A stretch of 64,000 nucleotides of DNA from Cunninghamella blakesleeana. Taxonomy: Eukaryota; Mucoromycota; Mucoromycetes; Mucorales; Cunninghamellaceae. Of this stretch, positions 3,646 through 60,379 are shown piece after piece. The DNA is taken from the NCBI GenBank assembly GCA_017871115.1, contig JAFCIZ010000001.1, positions 6,074,001 to 6,138,000 of the forward strand, given 5' to 3'. Each line of letters starts with the position of its first letter. Position 1 is the stretch's first letter. The notes under the pieces are model-generated. The model was not told where the DNA came from. It made no database searches and saw only the letters and a list, made by a program, of their open reading frames with translations. Position numbers and translations under genes: made by a program.

Positions 3646-5762
<2,117 letters not shown>

Positions 5763-11920: not shown

Positions 11921-12662
11921 TTATGTGCTATTAGATGATACAATTGCAAAAGAAGAAGAAGTAACCGAAGGGGTCATTGTAGGTCTAGATATAGTTGTGG
12001 TAGAAGTGGTAGTAGTAAAAGCGGTATAAGTGACATTATAAGATTGACTACTGGTTGGAAACATGGAAATGGTACTATTGTTATTCGAAGAAGTGGTTTT
12101 ATGGTTATGATTATCATTATAAGCTTTTCCTAGCCCAATAAAAATAAAAGCAAAAGCAATCAAAATGCCAACAATGATCATTAATGTAGCTAATATCCAT
12201 TTTCTTGCTTTTTTCATTGATGATAGAATAGGTGATGATGAAAAGGATGATTTTTCTTTTTTTAATGGGTTTTTGGATAGATGACTTGGTAAAGAAGAGG
12301 TACTAGATACAGCTGTAGAAACTGGTGATGGTGGCATAGGAATCATGGTACTTGAGGAAGGTGGTGATGGTGATGAATTAGACGATTGGGTTGTTTCTTC
12401 TTTTTTTTTTTTTTTTTTGTTGGTGAACCAAATCTTCATCTTGATAATGATGATTTGGATGATGCTGTTGTTGCTGTTTATTGGTAGTGGTATGAATGGA
12501 TGGTAAAGATGGATTGGGATACTTCATTACCAGAGTGGATGCTGTAGACATCTTTCTATTATTGTTGTTGTTATTATTGACCAAGATAGATTGTGGGATT
12601 ACTGTTGTTGATGATGACGAAGCTTCCCCATGATATGGTGAGTAATGATCATGAGTAGTCAT
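11921..12662 (-). CDS. Single-pass membrane protein, frame broken at a poly(T) run
   Basis: Unrecognised protein. Two overlapping open frames on the minus strand fit one gene. The first (12662 down to 12378) starts with an ATG and runs MTTHDHYSPYHG, then Asn- and His/Gln-rich sequence. The second (12439 down to 11921) carries Ser/Pro-rich sequence, the helix WILATLMIIVGILIAFAF and a Ser/Thr-rich tail. They meet at the 17-base T run 12402-12418. With one base fewer there, the whole becomes a single 246-residue protein. The layout is a basic and low-complexity N-terminal half, one membrane helix, and a Thr/Ser-rich, probably glycosylated C-terminal half with NNST and NVT sequons. It resembles a wall-stress-sensor-like arrangement, but I cannot name a family. 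The break may be a sequencing error, real slippage, or a real mutation. Confidence 0.55.
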
Positions 12663-13849
12663 CCAAAATATATATAATAATATATATTATTTAAAGGTAA
12701 GAGGTAAAAGAAGAAAAAGAATAATAAGAACGATGATGAATAAAATAAAATAAAAAAATAAAAAAGTAAGAGAGGAAAAAATAATAATTGATCATCCTTT
12801 TTTTTTAGTATTTATTTTTGCATTATAGTTGTACTTGAAATCAAGAAATGATCGGTTCTTGTTTAAAATTGGCATGAAAAAAAAAAAAAAAAATTCATCT
12901 TTCATCACCGATGTCAATACCGATCTTCCAAACATAATTTTGAAACCAATGATTCAATATAACAACACATACCTTTTTGAACATCATCTTATTCAACAAA
13001 AAAAACAAACAAAAGTAAAAATTATCATCTTTATCATCATTATTAATTTACAACCGTTGCAGCAATGATAATAAAAACAATTTTAAAAAAATTTTGTATA
13101 AATAAAATCATACAGTTTAAAGAAATTAAATTTTTCAAGGACAACAGCAATTAAAAAAAAAGAAAAGGGATTTGCTTCAGCTTGTTATTATTTATAAGTA
13201 TATATATATATATATTTATATATTTATGTTTATTTATTTATTTTATAATAAAAAATGAAAAATGTGTACAAAAAAAAAGGGTAATATAAAATTGATGAAG
13301 GATAATAATAAATATAACAACAAAAAAAAAAAATGGATATCAACAATAAGTAAATTAATGTTCAAAAAGAAAAAGAAGAAATAAAAAGAAGGCATAAAAA
13401 TATGGCATACAAAAGCATCATCCAAAATTATATATGATAAAAAGAAGAATAAGGGGAAGGTGGAATACAACAATTATATATAAATAAATATATATAAAAG
13501 AAGAAGTGGCGAATATTTAAATTATAGTAATAGTAGTAGTAATAGTAGTAGTAGTAGTAGTAATAGTAGTAAGTAATATATAAAAATAAAAAAAAATGAC
13601 TATCATACAAAAAAGAATAATAATAATGATATTAAAAAAAAATGATCATAATAATAAAAAAGGGACTAAATGGTAATAAAGTAATAAAAATAATAATAAA
13701 AAAAAGGTCATCATATAAAGAGGAGAAATAATAAAAAAGGGGGAGAAGAGAGAGTGAGAGAGAGAGTGAGAGAGACAGAGAGAAAAGAGAGAGAGATATA
13801 AGGGGTGGAAAAAAAAAAAAAAGATGAGGAGAGTAAGAGAGTGGTTACT
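12663..13849. other. Intergenic region with microsatellites
   Basis: 1187 bp between two minus-strand genes. It holds a (TAG)n tract at about 13524-13574, GA-rich repeats at about 13751-13799 and several A-runs. The open frames at 12829-13068 and 13243-13610 translate repeats and show no splice-linked structure. It should contain the promoter of the membrane protein gene. Confidence 0.55.
13524..13574. repeat. (TAG)n / (TAA)n microsatellite
   Basis: Trinucleotide tract of TAG units with interspersed TAA, non-coding. Confidence 0.8.
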
Positions 13850-14541
13850 TTATGAAAAAGATGAGAAATGCATATCGGAGAATGAAACAGATGCCAAGGG
13901 TGTATTAGAAGTAGTAGTTGCAGTGGTAGTTGAAATAATAGGTGTGGATGGAAGAGGAAGAGAAAGTGGAAGAGAAGAAGGAGGAGTAGAATGACAAGAT
14001 TTAATTTTAATATCTAATCTTTTTAAATTGCGATCCAAACTACGCACCTGGGCCATTAAATCATCATAAGCAATACTTAATTCTCTATCAATTTCATCCA
14101 AGTATTCGTCTGTTGTCATTTTAGAAGGATAAACTGTAAAGGCCGATTTCAATGAATTTAAAACGATATCAATAGTAGCCCATTCATCTTGTAAATAATG
14201 TAAGGTATCTTCTAATTTGATAATATCTTTTTGTTGTTCAGAAGTAGAAGAAGAGGATACTAAATTGGAAGTAGTGGTAGTGGCAGTGGTAATAGTTGTG
14301 TTGGTTGGAGATGGTATAGAAGAAGTGTGATGGTGATCGACCGGCTTCTTTTGCTTTTTTCTTTTGTTATTATTATTTTCATTTCTTATTTCTATAACTT
14401 GATTAAAATCTTGAAGTAAAATAGGGTCTGATGTATAAGGATATGAAAATAAATCATCATCTTGCTGTTGTTCAAATTTTCTTTTTACAGAAGTTGGTGT
14501 AGTTGGATTATTGTTATTATTATTGTTGTTATTGTTGTTAC

Positions 14542-14575
<34 letters not shown>

Positions 14576-14725
14576 ATTGCCATTATTGTTATTGGAAGTA
14601 GGTGTAAAATAGTTTACTTTTTTATCAAATAAAATGTCCATTGGATGATGAATATAAGGAAGTTGATAAACGTTGGCTTGATCAAAAATAGCGGTATTAG
14701 GATAAAACTCCATAAAATCTAGCAT
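13850..14725 (-). CDS. Asn-rich protein with a central helical domain, unknown
   Basis: Intronless 291-codon frame starting at an ATG (MLDFMEFYPNTAIFDQ). I do not recognise it. Residues 1-45 are non-repetitive. A long polyasparagine block (about 46-72) is followed by a basic patch (NNNKRKKQKK, nuclear-signal-like). A helical, probably coiled-coil stretch then runs from about 165 to 235, with KLEDTLHYLQDEW and LMAQVRSLDRNLKRLDIKIK. The tail is Ser/Thr/Pro-rich. The non-repeat parts have balanced codon use and charged heptads, so I think it is a real gene. Inferred: a nuclear protein with a helical interaction module. The nearest upstream gene is 4.9 kb away in the divergent direction. Confidence 0.7.
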
Positions 14726-26191: not shown

Positions 26192-28163
26192 TCAGTCTTG
26201 GTGAGTTGTTGGTAATAAATGAGATTTATGATGTTTTCTTCTACGTCCCATAATTTTATATGCTACAAAACCAAAAATAATAAAACTTATAAAGGTAAAT
26301 GAAGTATGTGACTGAGCTTGATTATATCCATATTGCAAGTGCTGTACTAATTTGGCAGTCAGAGATAAAGTTGAAATCCCTTTGATTTTCCCTAATATGA
26401 CTTCGTTTAATGTATCTAATATCATATGAGGTTCATCGATGGAAAAGAATTTTGATTTAATATCCCGGTTAAAATATTGATTATTCTAGATTAAACGAAA
26501 AAAAAAGTAATATTAAAAACACGTTCTTTATTATTTCATCAAATATATATACTACCATATTTATTTTATAACCCATTTAAAACTCTCCTCTTTTTTTATT
26601 ATTATGTTTTTATTTACAAGTTTCTCCTGATGATCATCCGGCCTTTTTATTTTTTATATTTTTTTTTTATATTTCTTATTTTTTCCTTGCATATTATATT
26701 TATTACCTTTCCATCCAAAATAATAAAGGAAGGTAAATCATTCTTTTGGATATTAAATGCGCTACGAACATAGTCTCCATAAGTATCCATATCCAATTGG
26801 GCAAAAAGTGCACGATCTGATTTTGAACGTGATCGACGGTCTTGATCCACACGCTTCTTTGCAAGTTTTTTGAATTTATCACGAGCTTCATCACTGTCTT
26901 CGTTATTATTAAAAAAGCCAAGTACAACTAATCGCTCACCTTGTAATAAATCTGGTGCATTCATAGGATTGATTTGTGTAACCAAAGGGTACTTCTCCAA
27001 TTCAATCCAGTTGGATACAGATTCTATACTTACTTGTTTATTATTATCACTAAGTCGACCTGGGTAAAGTAAATGATGGCCATCTTTTACAATCATTGCT
27101 AATGGTAAATCTGTCAATGCAAGTCCATATTGTCGTACAAGCTTTTCATCTGTGCTTGAATAAAATGTCACACCATTCATGAATTTTATACCAATGGTAT
27201 CCAACACTTCCTAAAAATATTATTATATAAAATTATAGAAATTAAAATAAATAAATTAGAAAACTATTATATATATATATGAATTATTATGCCATTATAT
27301 ATATATATATATATATAATTACCAAGGCAGCATCTGAATGATCTTTATGTAAGTAAACAAAAGCTACACCATTTGGATCTAAATCTTCATTATATTGAGC
27401 TTCATTCACAATTTTAATTACAGGGCTAATGATAATAATTAATATATAAATAATAATATACATATAAGTATTCTTTCGTATATTATTTTTTATAAATGGA
27501 TTAAATCAATGGGGGAAATCTTTTTTCTTAAAAATAATAATGGTAATCAATTAATTACCCTGTCATTTTCTTTGCATATTCAAGTAAGCTAGGTAAAGAT
27601 CTACTGCCGGAATACATATTTATTTGATCACCATTGATTCTAATTAAATTAAATAAATGGATAAATATATATGTATTTATGTTCATGGTTCTCAAAGTAT
27701 TATATTCTTACAATAATAAAGTAGGATATCCTTTTATACCATATTCTGAGCATATATCTTAAAAAAATATAAAAAAATGCAAAATGTTACTTGTTTATAT
27801 GTATGTTTAAATTATTATACTTCTTTTTATCCAGTTGCCATAGAAATGCACTATACCTTTATGCTTTTATTTTTATATTGTTTTTATATTTATTGTTTTA
27901 CCTTTATGTTCATCACAATTCACTTCGGCTACATCCACTTGATTTTTTAATTCTTTTGCCATTTGAACCCAAGTAGGAGCTAAATTTTGACAATGAGGAC
28001 ACCATGGTGCATAAAACTTAATAAAATAAGGTCTACCAGATTGTTTAGCTAAATTGATACCTTGGTAATCTAAGCTTATTGATTCACCCATTGGATTACT
28101 CTTTTCAAGCGAATGATCATTCAAATCATTATCTGTATATGTATCACTATCATCATCCATTTG

Positions 28164-28195
<32 letters not shown>

Positions 28196-28906
28196 CTAAT
28201 TGTTCATCTTCCATTAATTGTTCATCTTCCATTAATTCTTCTTCATCAGTGTTATCTTCATTATCATCAGATGTTGATGCGATGCCATTGATTTTATTAT
28301 ATTGTTCCAAAACAAATTCTTTTAAAGCTTCCACTGTACGCTCACCTTTAAAAGATTCAATAAATTTTCCTTCTGAATATAAATTCATTGTTGGAGTCCC
28401 TGATATTCCGTGTTCATTACAAAGATCGCCAAAAGCATTGCAATCGATTGTACCAAAATGAATATTATGCGTGGCTTCTAAGGACTCTTCTTTATCAGTA
28501 AATTCTTTCCAGGTTGGTGCTACGTAAACAGTAATAATAAATAATAATAATAAAGTTAAAAATAGAACTTAGCCATATAATTTAGTTGTATATGGTTTTA
28601 TTTTTTGCTTTCTCGTTGTTATTTAATTTACCGAAATATGTACAATGAGGACAATAAGGTGAAAAGTATTCAACAAACCTTATAAAAAAATGATATTTAT
28701 ATAGTAATAGATGATTAGTGAGCTAATGATTATTTGTTGTAAAGTAATAGATTATAAATAATATATTACTAAAAAATGATGTTTATTTACCATATACCAC
28801 TAGTTGTCAAAGAATCAAATTTTTTTTTATTTAGTTCAATAGAATTTGCAAATAAAGTCTGCGTAATAAATGAAGCAATAATCCATATTGAAGATTTAAA
28901 ATACAT
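26192..28906 (-). CDS. Transmembrane PDI-like thioredoxin-domain protein
   Basis: ER membrane protein-disulphide isomerase relative. Exons (minus): 28791-28906, 28632-28678, 27902-28519, 27712-27757, 27559-27639, 27323-27425, 26707-27210, 26192-26485 (602 aa), all in frame. Signal peptide at residues 1-22 (WIIASFITQTLFA). Thioredoxin domain 1 has active site SPYCPHC (C48/C51) and domain 2 has APWCPHC (C228/C231). Each has the cis-Pro motif (GTPT, GYPT). Between them lies an acidic linker with two LMEDEQ repeats and an Asp/Asn run. A redox-inactive thioredoxin-like region follows (about 310-500). Near the end is one membrane helix (FTFISFIIFGFVAYKIM) and a basic cytosolic tail with GRRRKHHKSH. 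The layout resembles fungal Eps1 and animal TMX3 proteins; orthology is not certain. CPHC rather than CGHC implies a somewhat more reducing site. Confidence 0.88.
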
Positions 28907-37703: not shown

Positions 37704-39295
37704 CAGCTGATTTAAGGTTTCCTTATTTGTAAAAGTAACGGAATTTTAATTCAACATAAACCATTTTTCACCACTTTTTTGTATTTGTTTTATATATATT
37801 TATATAAAAAAAAGATCATCTATTTTTTTTTTTTTTTTTTTTTTTGCTTTTCTATATCAACTTTATATTATATTATATTATTATTTTATTTTATTATATA
37901 TATATAATTTATTTTATTTTTTTTATTTTGGGAGAAAAAAAGAAATAAAAGAAAGTTTATCAAGTTTACCCATGAAAATCACTTTTTTTAATTGTCTTTT
38001 CTTATCTAGAATCAACTGCAATTATCCAAATAACTATTTGACGCATTTAATATTAATGTAAAAAATAAAACGATAATACTTTCTAATTCATCATATTAGA
38101 TATAAGTAACTTATTCCACGTGAAAGACCTGAGTTCTGTCAAAGGAGATGTTTAAGTTATGTCGACATATATTAATTTATCGCTATTTAAAATAGTTTCC
38201 CACAAGTGATTCCAATATCTTATTTCAAATTCGAATTATCATGAAACTCGTCGTTCCATTTGTTGTTTTCATCCGAACTATGGTTTTATCGGCAATATGT
38301 ATTGATATATTGCTCTAGGAGGTATATATGCATACAGCTCTTTTTAATTTATTAATTATTATCACCGAGTAGATAAACTACTTTATTATATCAAACCGTT
38401 CTATAATTTTAAAGTATTTCGGTCTTCCGTTAATTTGGATTGTAAATACATAGTATTTTTTTTGTGCTGATAAAATGTTGTTACTATAAGTAGAGTTTTT
38501 TTGTTGATTACTATTATTAAGTTAGGTGTTTATTTCCATGTGTTAACCGAAATATATCATCCATAAAAATATCTAAAAGCTTGTGACACCATACAATCAA
38601 GATATTGATAAACTATCGTTCTAGGTATAATTATAAAATCAAAAAAATCCATAGCATAGTTATTTGGATTTTTTTTTTTGCAAATATTTAAAAAACTTAT
38701 TAATTTTACTTTGATTCATTACTTCCTTATCCTTGCTGATAGTATATATTTAACAAGTCATTTGTTTATTTCTAAAAGTGTAAACGTTTTTTTTATTATC
38801 TACTGGTTATGTTGTGATATAAGAAAACTTGATCCATTTTTTATAAATTGATATTAATTTTAAAGTAATAAATAATAATACAAAGATATTACATTATATA
38901 CATTTTTATATATACGATCAGAATGAAAGAATTATATCAAATGTATAAAATAAAATAAAATAGTCCAATAAAATAAATAAATATAAACTAATAGAAAAAT
39001 ATATTTTTTACAAGTTAACTTTCATGATCTAAAATATAATAAGCTAGTCCATTAAATATATTTATTTCAATACTAAAAGGCTATATAATATTAGTAAAAT
39101 ATAAAAGTTATTAAATAAATATAAAATGGAGAGAGTGAATGTAATAGTAATAAAATTTTTTGTTGTTAAAAATTCGGAGTTAACGAGTGAAGGTGACTTT
39201 TTTAACATATATAAATTTTTTTTGTCTTTTCTTCTTCATTCTTTTTCCTTTCCTTTTTTTTTTCCCTTTTTCTGTAACAAACAACAATAATAGAA
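37704..39295. promoter_or_regulatory. Divergent region MAF1 / NELF-B
   Basis: 1592 bp between divergent starts, so both promoters lie here. The MAF1-proximal part (to about 37960) is purine/T-run rich. From about 37970 to 38850 the sequence is more complex and less AT-extreme, with a CACGTG box at about 38117, but no coding frame or RNA fold is recognised. The last 100 bp before the NELF-B ATG is a pyrimidine tract (TTCTTC and TTTTCC types), a usual sight at fungal start sites. Confidence 0.5.
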
Positions 39296-41766
39296 ATGAC
39301 GAAAGAAAATCTTATTGGACCAGCAGATGAAAAAATTAAATCATTATTATCACAGTATGATCCTATAGATGCTATTCGTAGTATACAACAAGACTATGGA
39401 CTTGATTTAGATGGCATTGATGCTAGTTATCCGCTATTAGATCTCTGTGGGTATAGTCGGCTTGAAATTCATTTAGCTTGCTTAGATGCTTTGAATAATA
39501 GCATTATTGAAAAAATCAACAAAGACTCTTTTCAACTCGAACAGTAAGTTTATATACTATAAATATTATCTTATTCTTAAAAAAGGAGAGCGAATATGAG
39601 TAACGCATAAATATATATATTATTTCTTTCACGTTTTTTTATCTAGTTTTTACGACATTTTTCAACGAACTTTCCCATACATTCACATTCCTTATATGCA
39701 ACCTATTCCTATGAAGTTATTAGAAAAATTTGAACGACAAATTGATGATGGCATTTTAGAACAATTAAAAGGCAATCTTGCAGTATTTGAAGTATGTTGT
39801 AAATAAAAGAGAGAGAAGAAGAAAACACGAACACGAACAAGAGTAAATAAATATTAATTGTAAATCATATCTTATTTTCTCTTTAGAATTGTCCTTTAAA
39901 TATCAAAAAACGTATTTGGAAAGACGACGAGCATTTTTTCCAACAGCAAATGTTAGGCATGTTGAACGACTATCATCATGATGAACGATTACAAACTTTG
40001 GCCATGAATTTAAAACCCGATAGTTATCAAGAAGTCATTGAAGAAAGGTAAAAACAAAATAAGAATAAAAAAATGAAATCAATAAATCATTATAACATCC
40101 GATCAATGAATCTAATATATATATATGTATGTTTTTTTTTTTTCTTTTTTCATATTTATATTCATCTCTATATAGACGTACACATCCTATAACACTCCGC
40201 ATTATTGAAATCATTGGTGGTGACCCAATTCTGTATACCATGTTTATGAAAATGATTCGATTAGTATTTGAAGCTACACCTTATCCAAGTTTATGTTCTT
40301 TACGTGTTGATATATTAATGAGTTTCCATGATCAAGATGTGAAACAGGTATTATATAAATATATCTAATTAAGATGTTTTAATTACTGATATTAATTTTT
40401 TTTTTTTATTTTATTGTTTTTTTTTTAAAAAAAAATGATAATAATTAAAGATCACTGATATAGATCAGAGTAGGCAATTAATATGGTCATTGGATACATG
40501 CGTAAGGAATCAAAATATGGATGAGGCAATTATAAGTAAGATCAAGGAATGCTTTGATGATGTCAAAAACGGTACACCGCTTTACGGGTAAAAATTTATA
40601 AATATAAATATAATATATAATAGTAGTAGAAATATTAATAATAAAGATTGTGGTGATGACACTAGCGATACTAAGCGACATATATATAATTTAATAGGGA
40701 TTTTGCTATGGTATTAATGGATCCACTATTTTCAAATTTCCTTTCATTATGTATTGTTCGATGGTTGAGAAATGGCGTAGATGATGATGTAAGTAAACGA
40801 ATGAAAAATGTAAAAATGAAAAGAAGTTGTAGGTTATAAAAATATTCACTTATATATTATACTATATTATTTAAAGGCACCTCCTAATTTAGAAGAACTT
40901 GTCAATTATAATGCCAAGTTATTAAATCTTGCACAATATGCACCTTCAGCCGTTGCTGACAATATAAAAATCCCAAAGTTAGATAAAGACTTAAAAGGAC
41001 GATATTGGACATCAGTATGTGAAGTAATTGTGAACGAAAATCTCAGCGCATCAGCCGTTAAAATGGAACCAGATACAATGCAATTCATGAATGAAATATT
41101 ACAAAAGAATGAGGTAGCACGAAAGGTTTATGTACAATACTTAATTGATAGAACCTATGAAAATGATCTCAGTACATTAAGTAGATGTTTACCCTTGATT
41201 TTATCCTCTTTACCTAAAAAATCCCATGAATCAGTCGATGGAATGAAAATCATGCATACTTATACTTATAAAGCATTTTTAAGAACATTTATGAACATAG
41301 TAGTTAAACGACATTTAGTGGATTGTTTAGTGGATCGAAGGTGGCGTCATACGATTATGGATTCGTTTTTATTAAAAGTTATTGAATGGGAATCTTGGGC
41401 TCATGAACAAGTGGTATGGATGTTGGTGGAATTTTATTCAGATTCTAAATATCTTTTATCTTTAACAAATGAACATATTACAATCCTTCATGATTGGGCA
41501 GAATTATGTATACTTAAAGGGAAAAGATCTGAAAAGGTAAAAACAAACATAACCAGAATTATAATATATTTTTACTTTAACTTTTATTTATTTATTTTTA
41601 TTATTATTGATTGTTATTTATTTATTTGCAGGATAACAAGAACTTTTTTGAAATATATTCAACCTTATTATTAAGATCAACTCAAATATTAGATGGCCGT
41701 TATCAAATTCGTCCAGCAAATGTTTTAAAATTCTGTACTGAAATAGAAGAGTCATCATCGCAATAA
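39296..41766 (+). CDS. NELFB: Negative elongation factor B (NELF-B/COBRA1) orthologue
   Basis: Subunit of the NELF complex which, in animals, holds RNA polymerase II at promoter-proximal pause sites together with DSIF. Exons: 39296-39543, 39647-39791, 39887-40047, 40176-40347, 40451-40587, 40698-40788, 40877-41536, 41632-41766 (582 aa; human 580), all in frame. Family matches from memory run along the whole length: YPLLDLCGYSRLEIH (human FLDLHGTPRLEFH), NIKKRIWKDDEHFF (VKRQIWQDNQALF), LRVDILMSFHDQDV (LRAELLMSLHDLDV), IWSLDTCVRNQNMDEA (TWCLDACIRERFVD), GDFAMVLMDPLFSN (GDLSMILCDPFAIN). The C-terminal helical repeats are present, but the human proline-rich tail is absent. NELF is missing from the standard yeasts, so a fungal copy is notable. 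Convergent with the VHS gene, 189 bp apart. Confidence 0.9.
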
Positions 41767-41955
41767 TTATGGATCACAAAAAAAAGAGCATTTATGTAAT
41801 TAACTGTACTATTACTATCCTATACAACTTTCTTTTTATTATTATTATTAAATATTTATATCCCATACCATATGTATTAAAACAGAAAGACTTATATATA
41901 AATTTAATATATTTATAAAACCAAAAAATAAAAAATAACGGGAGATTAAAAAAAC

Positions 41956-43051
41956 CTAACATATATAAGTATTTTTAGTAATAGGACGATGGCGTGAAAA
42001 GGGCGAAAGTTTTAAAAAAGGAGAATCTTGTGACTCATCTAACTTTTGATATTGCCGGCATTGTTTTTGCTTATAATGTTGAATTGGATGATAATAATGG
42101 TCGAGAGATTCGAAATGCTTTTTATCTTCGTATTCATTCTTCGTGATACTTCTTTCATAATTTAAGGTTGACTTTTCAAATTTCCATTTAGGATCCTAAT
42201 AAAAAGGCATACATAATATAAGTATATATATATATATATATTATTATGATTATCCCATTTTTTAATAATATTTCACCTCTTTTAATTGATGATGATCTTT
42301 ATTAATAATAGGTAAAAGTTGCTTCACTTTAGGTTCTTCAAATTCATATTTTAAAACCCATTGTTCCATTTTAACTAAAAGATTTTTTTTGACTTTTAAA
42401 TCTACTTTCTACATATGAAAAAAAAAAAAAAAATAGAGTAATAACAAAATGAGAAAAGAGTTATTTTACTTTAATTATATTTATGATTTTTATATATTAC
42501 TGATGATTTTAAAATCCATTTAAGTCGTGAAATAAGCTTAGAATTTAATAAAACATCACCTAAAGAAAAATACATATACTTTTATATTAATTGATAGGGA
42601 ATAATTTCAAAAAAAAAAAAAAAAATCAAAAGCAAAATCTATTCAATTACGTAAAAAATATCTCTTGGTATTTTCTATTAAATAGTTTAATATCTAATTA
42701 TAAAAAAAATAATAAAATAAACTAAAAAGATCAGTGAGTGAATTTTTTTTAATCTTATTGATATGACATATATTACTTCGATCACTCGTAGTCTTTGATG
42801 ATTTGTTCCATGTTTTAATTTTTTTTGTAAAGCGTATAAAGCCTCTTTATTTCCGTTCTCTTGTATTGTCATAGAATCTATCAAGTGCTGTAATGTAAAC
42901 CTTTCATTTTCTTCCATTACGGATAATCTGTCTATATTATACAAAATAATTATACATATAAATACAATTACTATATCTTTTTTATTGCTACTATTACGTA
43001 GTTACCTATAGAAACAGTAATAGATGTACATTGAGTTTTAAATATTCTCAT
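41956..43051 (-). CDS. VHS-domain protein, Lsb5-like
   Basis: Small endocytosis or trafficking adaptor candidate, 224 aa. Exons (minus): 43006-43051, 42777-42931, 42651-42693, 42501-42559, 42277-42408, 41956-42195, all in frame. The central 110 residues read as a VHS superhelix: KEALYALQKKLKHGTNHQRL, then ILNYLIENTKRYFL, LLNSKLISRLKWILKSS and VKKNLLVKMEQWVLKYEFE. This pattern of paired helices with an RLR..EILNYLIEN core is typical of VHS/ENTH-type domains, and it is nearest in feel to yeast Lsb5. No GAT or ubiquitin-binding domain can be seen. The C-terminal 80 residues are charged, aromatic and unstructured, ending SRHRPITKNTYIC. The N-terminal start (MRIFKTQCTSITVSI) is plausible but unsupported by homology. 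One donor is GTGAAA. Confidence 0.75.
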
Positions 43052-53205: not shown

Positions 53206-53867
53206 CATACTCAAAGCTTACTCAAGATAAAAAAAGTTATTTATATTAATGTTATTTTTTCTTCTTATTTACACTTTATGATGATCATATTATGTTACAT
53301 TATGTATATATAGCAATTAAACAAGTTGAACCCTGGTTCCCTGAAAATGTAGTCAAAGAAGAATACATTGCATTATTAAATAGTGAAACGTCTGTGCCTG
53401 AACATCATTTAAAAGCAGCCTTATTGAGACGAGCCATGGAAGCCGTTCGACGATTAGTTCAAGTACAACAAGAAAAACCTGCCTTACAACAATTAATGCG
53501 TATGGGAAGTATTGGTGATGAATTATGGACAGAGTTTACAGTAGCAGAACAAGAAATCATGACCGAGTTACAAACCATTGCTGCTGAAGCCAATACATTT
53601 AAAGAAAACTGGGGCCAAACAATCTTCTCTACAGCAGCACAAATGTTAGAACACGAAAAACAAAAGGAATTACAAAAGGAAATGGTACAATTACGTGATC
53701 TTGAAGAAAAAAAGAGATTAGCTCAAGAAAAAAGAGATCAAAAGGAAAATCAACAGCATCAAAAGGATGAACATGACCGCAAATTAAAGGATGCTGAAAA
53801 AGCTCAACAAGAATTATTGGATATGGAAGAAAAAGAAAAAAAAGGAAAGGGAAAGGGAAAGAAATAA
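53033..53867 (+). CDS. SEC66: Sec66/Sec71-type translocon subunit
   Basis: Subunit of the Sec62/63 complex for post-translational import into the ER. Exons: 53033-53123 and 53314-53867 (214 aa; yeast 206), in frame. One N-terminal membrane helix (LLLPALYLGGCIAAMTIFSHFY), then the cytosolic domain with the family's PWFPENVVKEEYIALL, LKAALLRRAMEAVRRLVQVQ and LWTEFTVAEQEIMTELQTIA, and a highly charged C-terminal coiled coil (about 150-205) ending in a KGKGKGKK run. The long Lys/Glu tail is usual in filamentous fungal members. Get5, a chaperone-route ER targeting factor, sits divergently next door. Confidence 0.92.
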
Positions 53868-58588: not shown

Positions 58589-59658
58589 TTAAGAAGCAGC
58601 AGCTGAAGCTAAAAATTGTTCTTCCCAATAAAGTTGCATTTGTTTAATTTTCTTTGAAGAAGAGGAATCCAAATCATCCAAACCCCATAAGATTTCCTTG
58701 ACTCGTTCTTGCACTTCACCTTTTTCAAGTATTAAAGCATCATCATCATCTTTTTCTTCCAAAAATTTATTAATACGACGAATGTCTTTACGTACTTCAT
58801 GAACCGTCTTTGCAATAGAGCGTAATCTTTGATTCAATTCAGTGACTTGACGTTTATTGACATACATGATTTCTTTTAATTCTTCCAAAGTGTCTGTCAT
58901 GCCAGTAGTTTCCATGGTTAAATGTCGTAATAAAGGTAATGGGTTTTCATACGAATAGGCTTTATCATATAATGTTACCTTCATTTGTCCTACTAAATGT
59001 TCCAATTCACGCAAAGCATCCAAAGGCATGAAATGAGCTTCTTTACGTAAAACGCTTTCTAAATTACGTAATGAATTAGTTTGCCGTTCTCTATCACGCG
59101 ATTTATTTTCTACTAAACTTGCTACCGAGGTCATGATCAGTTCTAAAGGTTTTCCGCCATCCATCATTGTTGTTACCTTTCTACCATTTAATTGTTGTTG
59201 TTGTAATAAACTTGACATGCTTCTAGATGATGAAAAGGGGGAGCGATCATCTGTAGAGGATAGTGTATGACTAAGACGTTTATGTAATGTTTTTGTTTCC
59301 CATACCACTGAATTTAATTCCTCCAATTGTCTTTTTAATACTTCAAAAGGATCATCATCTACTTCAGGCTCTAAAGATGACCAGGTAGAAGAAAAGGAAC
59401 TTCTTCGACTACGACCAAAGGAGGACCATTGTAAAGGTGACATTATAGGGCTGGTTTGATCTGAAAAATTATCTTGTATGTATCCATTTGTGTCGAGAAT
59501 ACCGCTGCTATTACTATTATGACCAGTTGAATAAAAGTTGACTAAACCAGAAACAGATGATAATTCTTCATTACTAATTCCATTACTATCCAAACTATTA
59601 ATATTATTGTTATTAGTGGAAGTAGTAGTAGTGTTGATATTGGTATTGATATGGTTGA

Positions 59659-59692
<34 letters not shown>

Positions 59693-60052
59693 ATTGTTAT
59701 TATTATTGTTAAAAGAGGTAGAGGTAGAAGAAGAAATATGATTATCAATAGAATTTAAACTTGTACTTGTTGAAGACCCTAAAAATTTATTAAATTCTAT
59801 TTGAGGTGAACCATCTTGTTTTCGAAGAGGGCTTGACAAACTACGATCCATAGCTAAACTTGCCAACTTACTACTTGGGCTAGGCGATAAAGGTTCTAAA
59901 CTAGGATTTGTTGCTGACTCAAGTTCAGCTGCAAGTGAGGAACCTAAAGTGGCGGTCATACCGTATCCTTTACCAAGTAATTCTTCTTCAAGCGATAAAC
60001 TGGCTACAAAGGCATCATCATAAAGTTCTTCATGTAACTGGGCTTCTGACAT
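58589..60052 (-). CDS. Coiled-coil protein with Asn-rich linker, unknown
   Basis: Intronless 487-codon frame with an ATG start. I do not recognise it. Residues 1-30 are acidic and helical (MSEAQLHEELYDDAFVASLS). From about 45 to 230 it is Ser/Asn-rich with polyAsn, SPSPSSKL, SLSSPLRK and RSRRSSFSS stretches that look like phosphorylation sites. The C-terminal half is non-repetitive and helical: DPFEVLKRQLEELNSVVWET, LRELEHLVGQMKVTLYDKAY, LEELKEIMYVNKRQVTELNQ and IAKTVHEVRKDIRRINKFLE. Inferred: a cytosolic or cortical scaffold protein that oligomerises through the C-terminal coils. A single long exon is unusual here, where most conserved genes have many introns. A T13/A12 block lies upstream (60172-60196). 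Confidence 0.82.
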
Positions 60053-60379
60053 TATTAATGTTATTATTATATTTTTTTAATCTATATAATATAAAAAGAG
60101 AATAGTAGGTAGTAAAATAAAAATAGTAAGAAGTGAAAGGAAAGATGAAAGAATGAAAAAAACTATTTTTATTTTTTTTTTTTTAAAAAAAAAAAATATG
60201 ATAAAGGGAGGAGTAAGAGAAAGGGGAATGAAAAAAAAAAAAAAGCACCACAAATAAAAAAATCAGCCTGTGTAACTAAGGTTTAAAAAAGCTTATGACG
60301 TCCCAAAAGAGAGATGAAACTCATTATTGAACTAAAGAATCATGAAACTCTATATATATTTTATTAATTCTTTCATATG

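Follow-up and report, generated by a model that had tools for sequence, protein, structure and literature searches.

Genes for NELF-A, NELF-B and NELF-C/D in the fungus Cunninghamella blakesleeana and a possible three-subunit NELF

Does a fungus possess the negative elongation factor (NELF), which was called "metazoan-specific" as late as 2025 in a passage of a structural paper (PMC11881899)? The question was raised by a gene located in a 64,000-nucleotide stretch of the Cunninghamella blakesleeana genome (hereafter the window, C1:6074001-6138000 within a 31.9 Mb, 12-contig genome). We found that this gene, at window positions 39296..41766 of the + strand, encoded a fungal orthologue of NELF-B, and sequence comparisons identified genes for NELF-A and NELF-C/D in the same genome. 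It is fairly probable, judging from these sequences and from analogy, that the three proteins form a three-subunit NELF that would assemble as in animals and act as a brake on RNA polymerase II (Pol II) just past the start site. The NELF-B gene itself was not new, as it had already been catalogued by public annotation. The addition made here was the traced set of NELF-A, NELF-B and NELF-C/D in a fungus, including a NELF-A that was cut in the public models of C. echinulata.

The NELF-B gene

The COBRA1 profile matched residues 100-408 of the encoded protein with 142.1 bits (cut-off 22, E = 2.9e-41). An earlier note on this DNA, made from the sequence alone, had proposed this profile search, and its outcome agreed with the note's assignment, with no other Pfam family matched. 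In a PDB search with the same protein, all six distinct sequences found at E <= 0.001 were NELF-B (best 4.9e-43), and a six-frame search of the genome with COBRA1 gave a single match, on exon 4 of this gene. Thus, the sequence comparisons identified the gene correctly as a NELF-B orthologue.

The earlier note had also described an alignment with animal NELF-B from end to end. By sequence this was not shown, since the phmmer alignment to PDB NELF-B spanned residues 12-428 of 582. By fold it was: the predicted structure of P0001, an annotated C. echinulata protein, matched human NELF-B over residues 37-561 (480 residues aligned, 22% identity, rmsd, root-mean-square deviation, 5.0), and the match ended at residue 561 in the fungal protein and 555 in the human one. 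As for the human Pro-rich tail, given as missing in the note, the lengths were nearly equal, at 582 residues in the fungus and 580 in the human chain 7ycx_f. According to the predicted model, the NELF-B fold was kept along the whole protein.

The coordinates, the eight exons and the 582-residue joined translation given in the note proved correct, and both of its motifs were located in the protein. Every intron had GT-AG ends and compatible phases in the splice-junction check. The exons listed below rest on junctions and translation, exon 7 also on the fold match.

Exon 1: 39296..39543, + strand, with the ATG at 39296
Exon 2: 39647..39791, + strand
Exon 3: 39887..40047, + strand
Exon 4: 40176..40347, + strand, encodes LMSFHDQDV (residues 232-240)
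Exon 5: 40451..40587, + strand, encodes W.LD.C.R (residues 254-261)
Exon 6: 40698..40788, + strand
Exon 7: 40877..41536, + strand, the longest, encodes most of the C-terminal helical region
Exon 8: 41632..41766, + strand, ends in the stop codon TAA

Compared with our model, P0001 was 99% identical and of equal length, with three substitutions (T477A, I576M and S579P) and no indel; the exon joins therefore agreed with the public annotation. An Rfam scan of window positions 38000-43000 gave nothing at gathering scores.

The NELF-A and NELF-C/D genes

The earlier note had suggested that this lineage kept at least one NELF subunit and that the genome be searched for the others. The first statement was true of NELF-B but understated the case, because the search recovered genes for two further subunits, while NELF-E was not detected by three protein queries.

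C1:5442134-5445113: NELF-C/D gene, TH1 domain match of 310.5 bits (E = 3.3e-92)
C1:5428261-5430876: NELF-A gene, NELF-A_N domain match of 41.7 bits (cut-off 27, E = 1.4e-10)

Human and fungal NELF-C/D matched each other at 4e-68. In fungal NELF-A, tryptophans W23 and W88, the equivalents of W24 and W89, were present in all seven alignment rows that covered the region. Alignment A1 held the NELF-A model with seven of nine homologues, leaving out P0038 (a near-duplicate) and P0042 (a fragment); alignment A3 used eight of nine rows. The public C. echinulata models of NELF-A, P0037 and P0038, began at MLQDFP inside exon 2. Namely, they lacked exon 1 and the start of exon 2, perhaps because of the 733-base first intron, and hence had no NELF-A_N domain call.

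The NELF-A and NELF-C/D genes shared a strand of contig C1, which also carries NELF-B, and were separated by 11,257 bases, and this proximity is possibly a linkage of interacting subunits. A second NELF-A_N match, at C7:908148, was rejected (E = 0.08; the frame around it matched no Pfam family). In the tail of the Mucorales NELF-A protein P0034, residues 348-410 were predicted to form a long, highly charged helix, which started inside the conserved stretch (K/R)-GFIKQSRVQMLDF or immediately behind it and had no significant human counterpart. Overall confidence in the P0034 model was low, with a mean predicted local distance difference test score (pLDDT) of 57.0; only the N-terminal domain and most of this helix were well predicted.

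A possible three-subunit complex

In the proposed mechanism, the N-terminal domain of NELF-A would insert tryptophans W23 and W88 into NELF-C/D, and NELF-B would dock the N-terminal part of NELF-C/D. The complex, together with DSIF, would bind early elongating Pol II, and the A/C lobe at the secondary channel would slow the polymerase shortly after it leaves the start site, until a kinase of the Cdk9 type acts. Passages of the human structural work (PMC11881899) describe one binding mode in which the NELF-A/C lobe obstructs the secondary channel of Pol II, and another in which the NELF-B/E lobe faces the downstream DNA, which the NELF-E helix contacts. That basic helix lies within the N-terminal 52 residues of human NELF-E and contacts DNA (PMC11881899, same passages). 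Since no NELF-E basic helix or RNA-binding domain, no detectable HDAg region and no HEXIM or 7SK were found, the pause would be expected to be weak, early and short-lived, unlike that of animals, which is long and regulated. The NELF set probably predates the split of fungi and animals and was later lost on the lineage to the common yeasts.

Several points weighed against such a complex. Exon 1 of NELF-A, joined over the 733-base intron, was based on homology and not on RNA; since the public models begin inside exon 2, it rests on human NELF-A and on full-length relatives. The start codon of the NELF-C/D gene model is provisional. The hhalign alignment of fungal to human NELF-A ended at human residue 170, and past about residue 175 the fungal protein was unrecognisable, a stretch that includes the Pol II-binding tail and some of the extended NELF-C-binding region. 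Two conserved fungal NELF-A motifs matched human NELF-A not clearly better than shuffled sequences did, with 145 and 53 of 2000 shuffles, respectively, reaching the score. Three human NELF-E protein queries, run over the whole genome and without a positive control, gave no specific match, and according to passages of PMC11881899 mutation of the NELF-E helix weakened inhibition in a human in vitro system. Separately, a candidate homology of RGFIKQSRVQMLDF with human RKERGVKLLDISEL in the HDAg region or tail was dropped, as 267 and 241 of 2000 shuffles reached its score in two cuts.

In Drosophila cells, passages of PMC10182999 report, NELF makes gene-body entry dependent on Cdk9. A three-subunit NELF of Mucorales might pause Pol II, with a Cdk9-type kinase gating gene-body entry in the absence of NELF-E, HEXIM and 7SK. 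The P0034 helix 348-410 could then take the place of the NELF-E basic helix and contact nascent RNA or the DNA downstream. We regard this extension as tentative and, on present grounds, doubtful. The NELF proteins may instead have been kept for a different task, for example in early termination or at chromatin, or for a cytoplasmic function of NELF-B, with no promoter-proximal pause depending on them. A cytoplasmic NELFB function independent of Pol II pausing has been reported (PMC10591015), and S. pombe is described as showing pause-like 5' Pol II without NELF. However, NELF-A, NELF-B and NELF-C/D were retained jointly, which argues for a complex and made the different task unlikely.

Search for NELF-E, HEXIM, 7SK and Integrator

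NELF might also have four subunits in this fungus, with a NELF-E too diverged for our searches, in which case pausing would be nearer the animal kind. The genome offered many hiding places for such a protein, with at least 151 matches to the RNA-recognition motif (RRM; 150 of 177 candidates scored), and the C-terminal fold of NELF-B was kept. However, none of the candidates inspected resembled NELF-E. The human RRM and tail query gave 13 genome matches (best E = 6.8e-7), of which five were inspected. The best of them, C1:6561772-6562065, belonged to an RRM and cyclophilin protein by Pfam; C10:490714, C11:976495 and C5:2995130 lay in frames with RRM-type Pfam matches only; and C7:1580181 lay in a long frame containing several RRM-like stretches. 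By eye, none of these last four had a NELF-E-like tail. The N-terminal 52 residues gave one chance-level match (E = 0.169, C1:4373199) inside an SNF2 helicase frame, and the human tail query gave no genome match.

A vertebrate NELF-E profile, built from 14 of 120 listed NELF-E proteins, was scanned over 50 loci of all kinds. Its N-terminal half matched none of them, and its RRM half matched many RRM proteins among which none stood apart (best 34.1, 33.0 and 32.9 bits). A hidden fourth subunit thus seemed rather improbable, and NELF-E was scored as not detected, not as absent. Genome searches for HEXIM (PF15313), 7SK RNA (RF00100) and the INTS1 domain of Integrator (PF12432) gave no match, each without a positive control.

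NELF-B in other fungi

A homologue search with NELF-B listed 33 proteins (7992 candidates scored), all with COBRA1 and all used in alignment A2. They comprised 31 fungal proteins from 24 named genera, along with an unnamed JGI protein and a single protein from a mite. All 24 genera belong, as we assume, to Mucorales, and this placement was checked for two of them, Hesseltinella and Radiomyces. The search requires shared five-residue words, so it is uninformative that other fungi and nearly all animals are missing from the list. Of the 31 fungal proteins, 24 already bore a name such as "Negative elongation factor B" or "cofactor of BRCA1".

Passages of Chivu et al. 2024 (PMC11482795) describe NELF-B and NELF-C/D as widespread among eukaryotes, infer that the ancestor of eukaryotes had both, and report their loss from S. 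cerevisiae, S. pombe, C. elegans and land plants. They also note that some unicellular eukaryotes appear to have a NELF-A homologue. Pausing indexes were higher in species with NELF-B and NELF-C/D than in NELF-free species, and the two fungi of their precision run-on sequencing (PRO-seq) atlas were both yeasts without NELF (PMC11482795, same passages). The earlier note had treated NELF as an animal-type system missing from the common yeasts. The loss in model yeasts stood, while the animal-type framing was dated, given the wide eukaryote spread reported in the same passages (PMC11482795) and the public names on the fungal proteins. In the main text of PMC11482795, the words Mucor, Rhizopus and chytrid were absent. 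No publication on NELF in Mucorales appeared among the best-ranked open-licence literature matches, and the sole open-licence paper containing both terms mentioned NELF in a legend of its gliotoxin section.

Contamination or a recent transfer from an animal was scarcely conceivable as the source of the NELF-B gene. The one animal protein in the homologue list is a mite's, and the search was blind to most animal NELF-B. However, the gene lay inside an 8.03 Mb contig, the window was AT-rich throughout, and the 31 named fungal proteins were 42-99% identical to this NELF-B against 24% for the mite protein. We also give practically no credence to another HEAT/ARM-repeat protein resembling NELF-B by fold alone; membership in another family was rejected, COBRA1 being the sole Pfam match up to an E-value of 1.

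Other features of the window

The following features were observed elsewhere in the window.

53250-53864, + strand: Sec66 (preprotein translocase subunit) exon, E = 2.6e-36
27876-28568, - strand: thioredoxin-domain exon, an ordinary neighbour
4465-5106, - strand: protein kinase exon, an ordinary neighbour
58592-60076, - strand: open frame of 495 residues that contains Asn-rich tracts and matches no Pfam family above cut-off
12001-14000: locally strong GC skew (0.42), adjoining an Asn-rich open frame at 13850-14725, - strand

Comparison with known NELF systems

A fungus with NELF-A, NELF-B and NELF-C/D and no detectable NELF-E represents a natural experiment on the core complex without NELF-E and HEXIM, and a test case both for pausing without NELF-E and for whether the Cdk9 checkpoint existed before animals. 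If a working three-subunit NELF is true, the NELF checkpoint would predate animals and NELF-E would be a later add-on. With the fungi of the atlas being NELF-free yeasts, Mucorales would make the pausing question directly testable.

The NELF-B proteins of other Mucorales were orthologous (e.g., 71% identity in Absidia repens and 56% in Rhizopus delemar), covered 71-100% of the query and showed no notable difference. Human NELF-B/COBRA1 (PF06209; PDB 8w8e_V and 8jj6_A) was of the same family and near-equal length and shared the W.LD.C.R motif, whereas phmmer detected no similarity past fungal residue 428 and the fungal protein had no detected NELF-E partner. The core NELF of unicellular eukaryotes, as outlined in passages of PMC11482795, had the same NELF-B and NELF-C/D and likewise no NELF-E found, but the fungus additionally possessed the N-terminal domain of NELF-A. 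In comparison to the metazoan complex of NELF-A, NELF-B, NELF-C/D and NELF-E, the fungus lacked detectable NELF-E, HDAg region, conserved NELF-A tail, HEXIM and 7SK, but had three of the four subunits and both tryptophan plugs of NELF-A.
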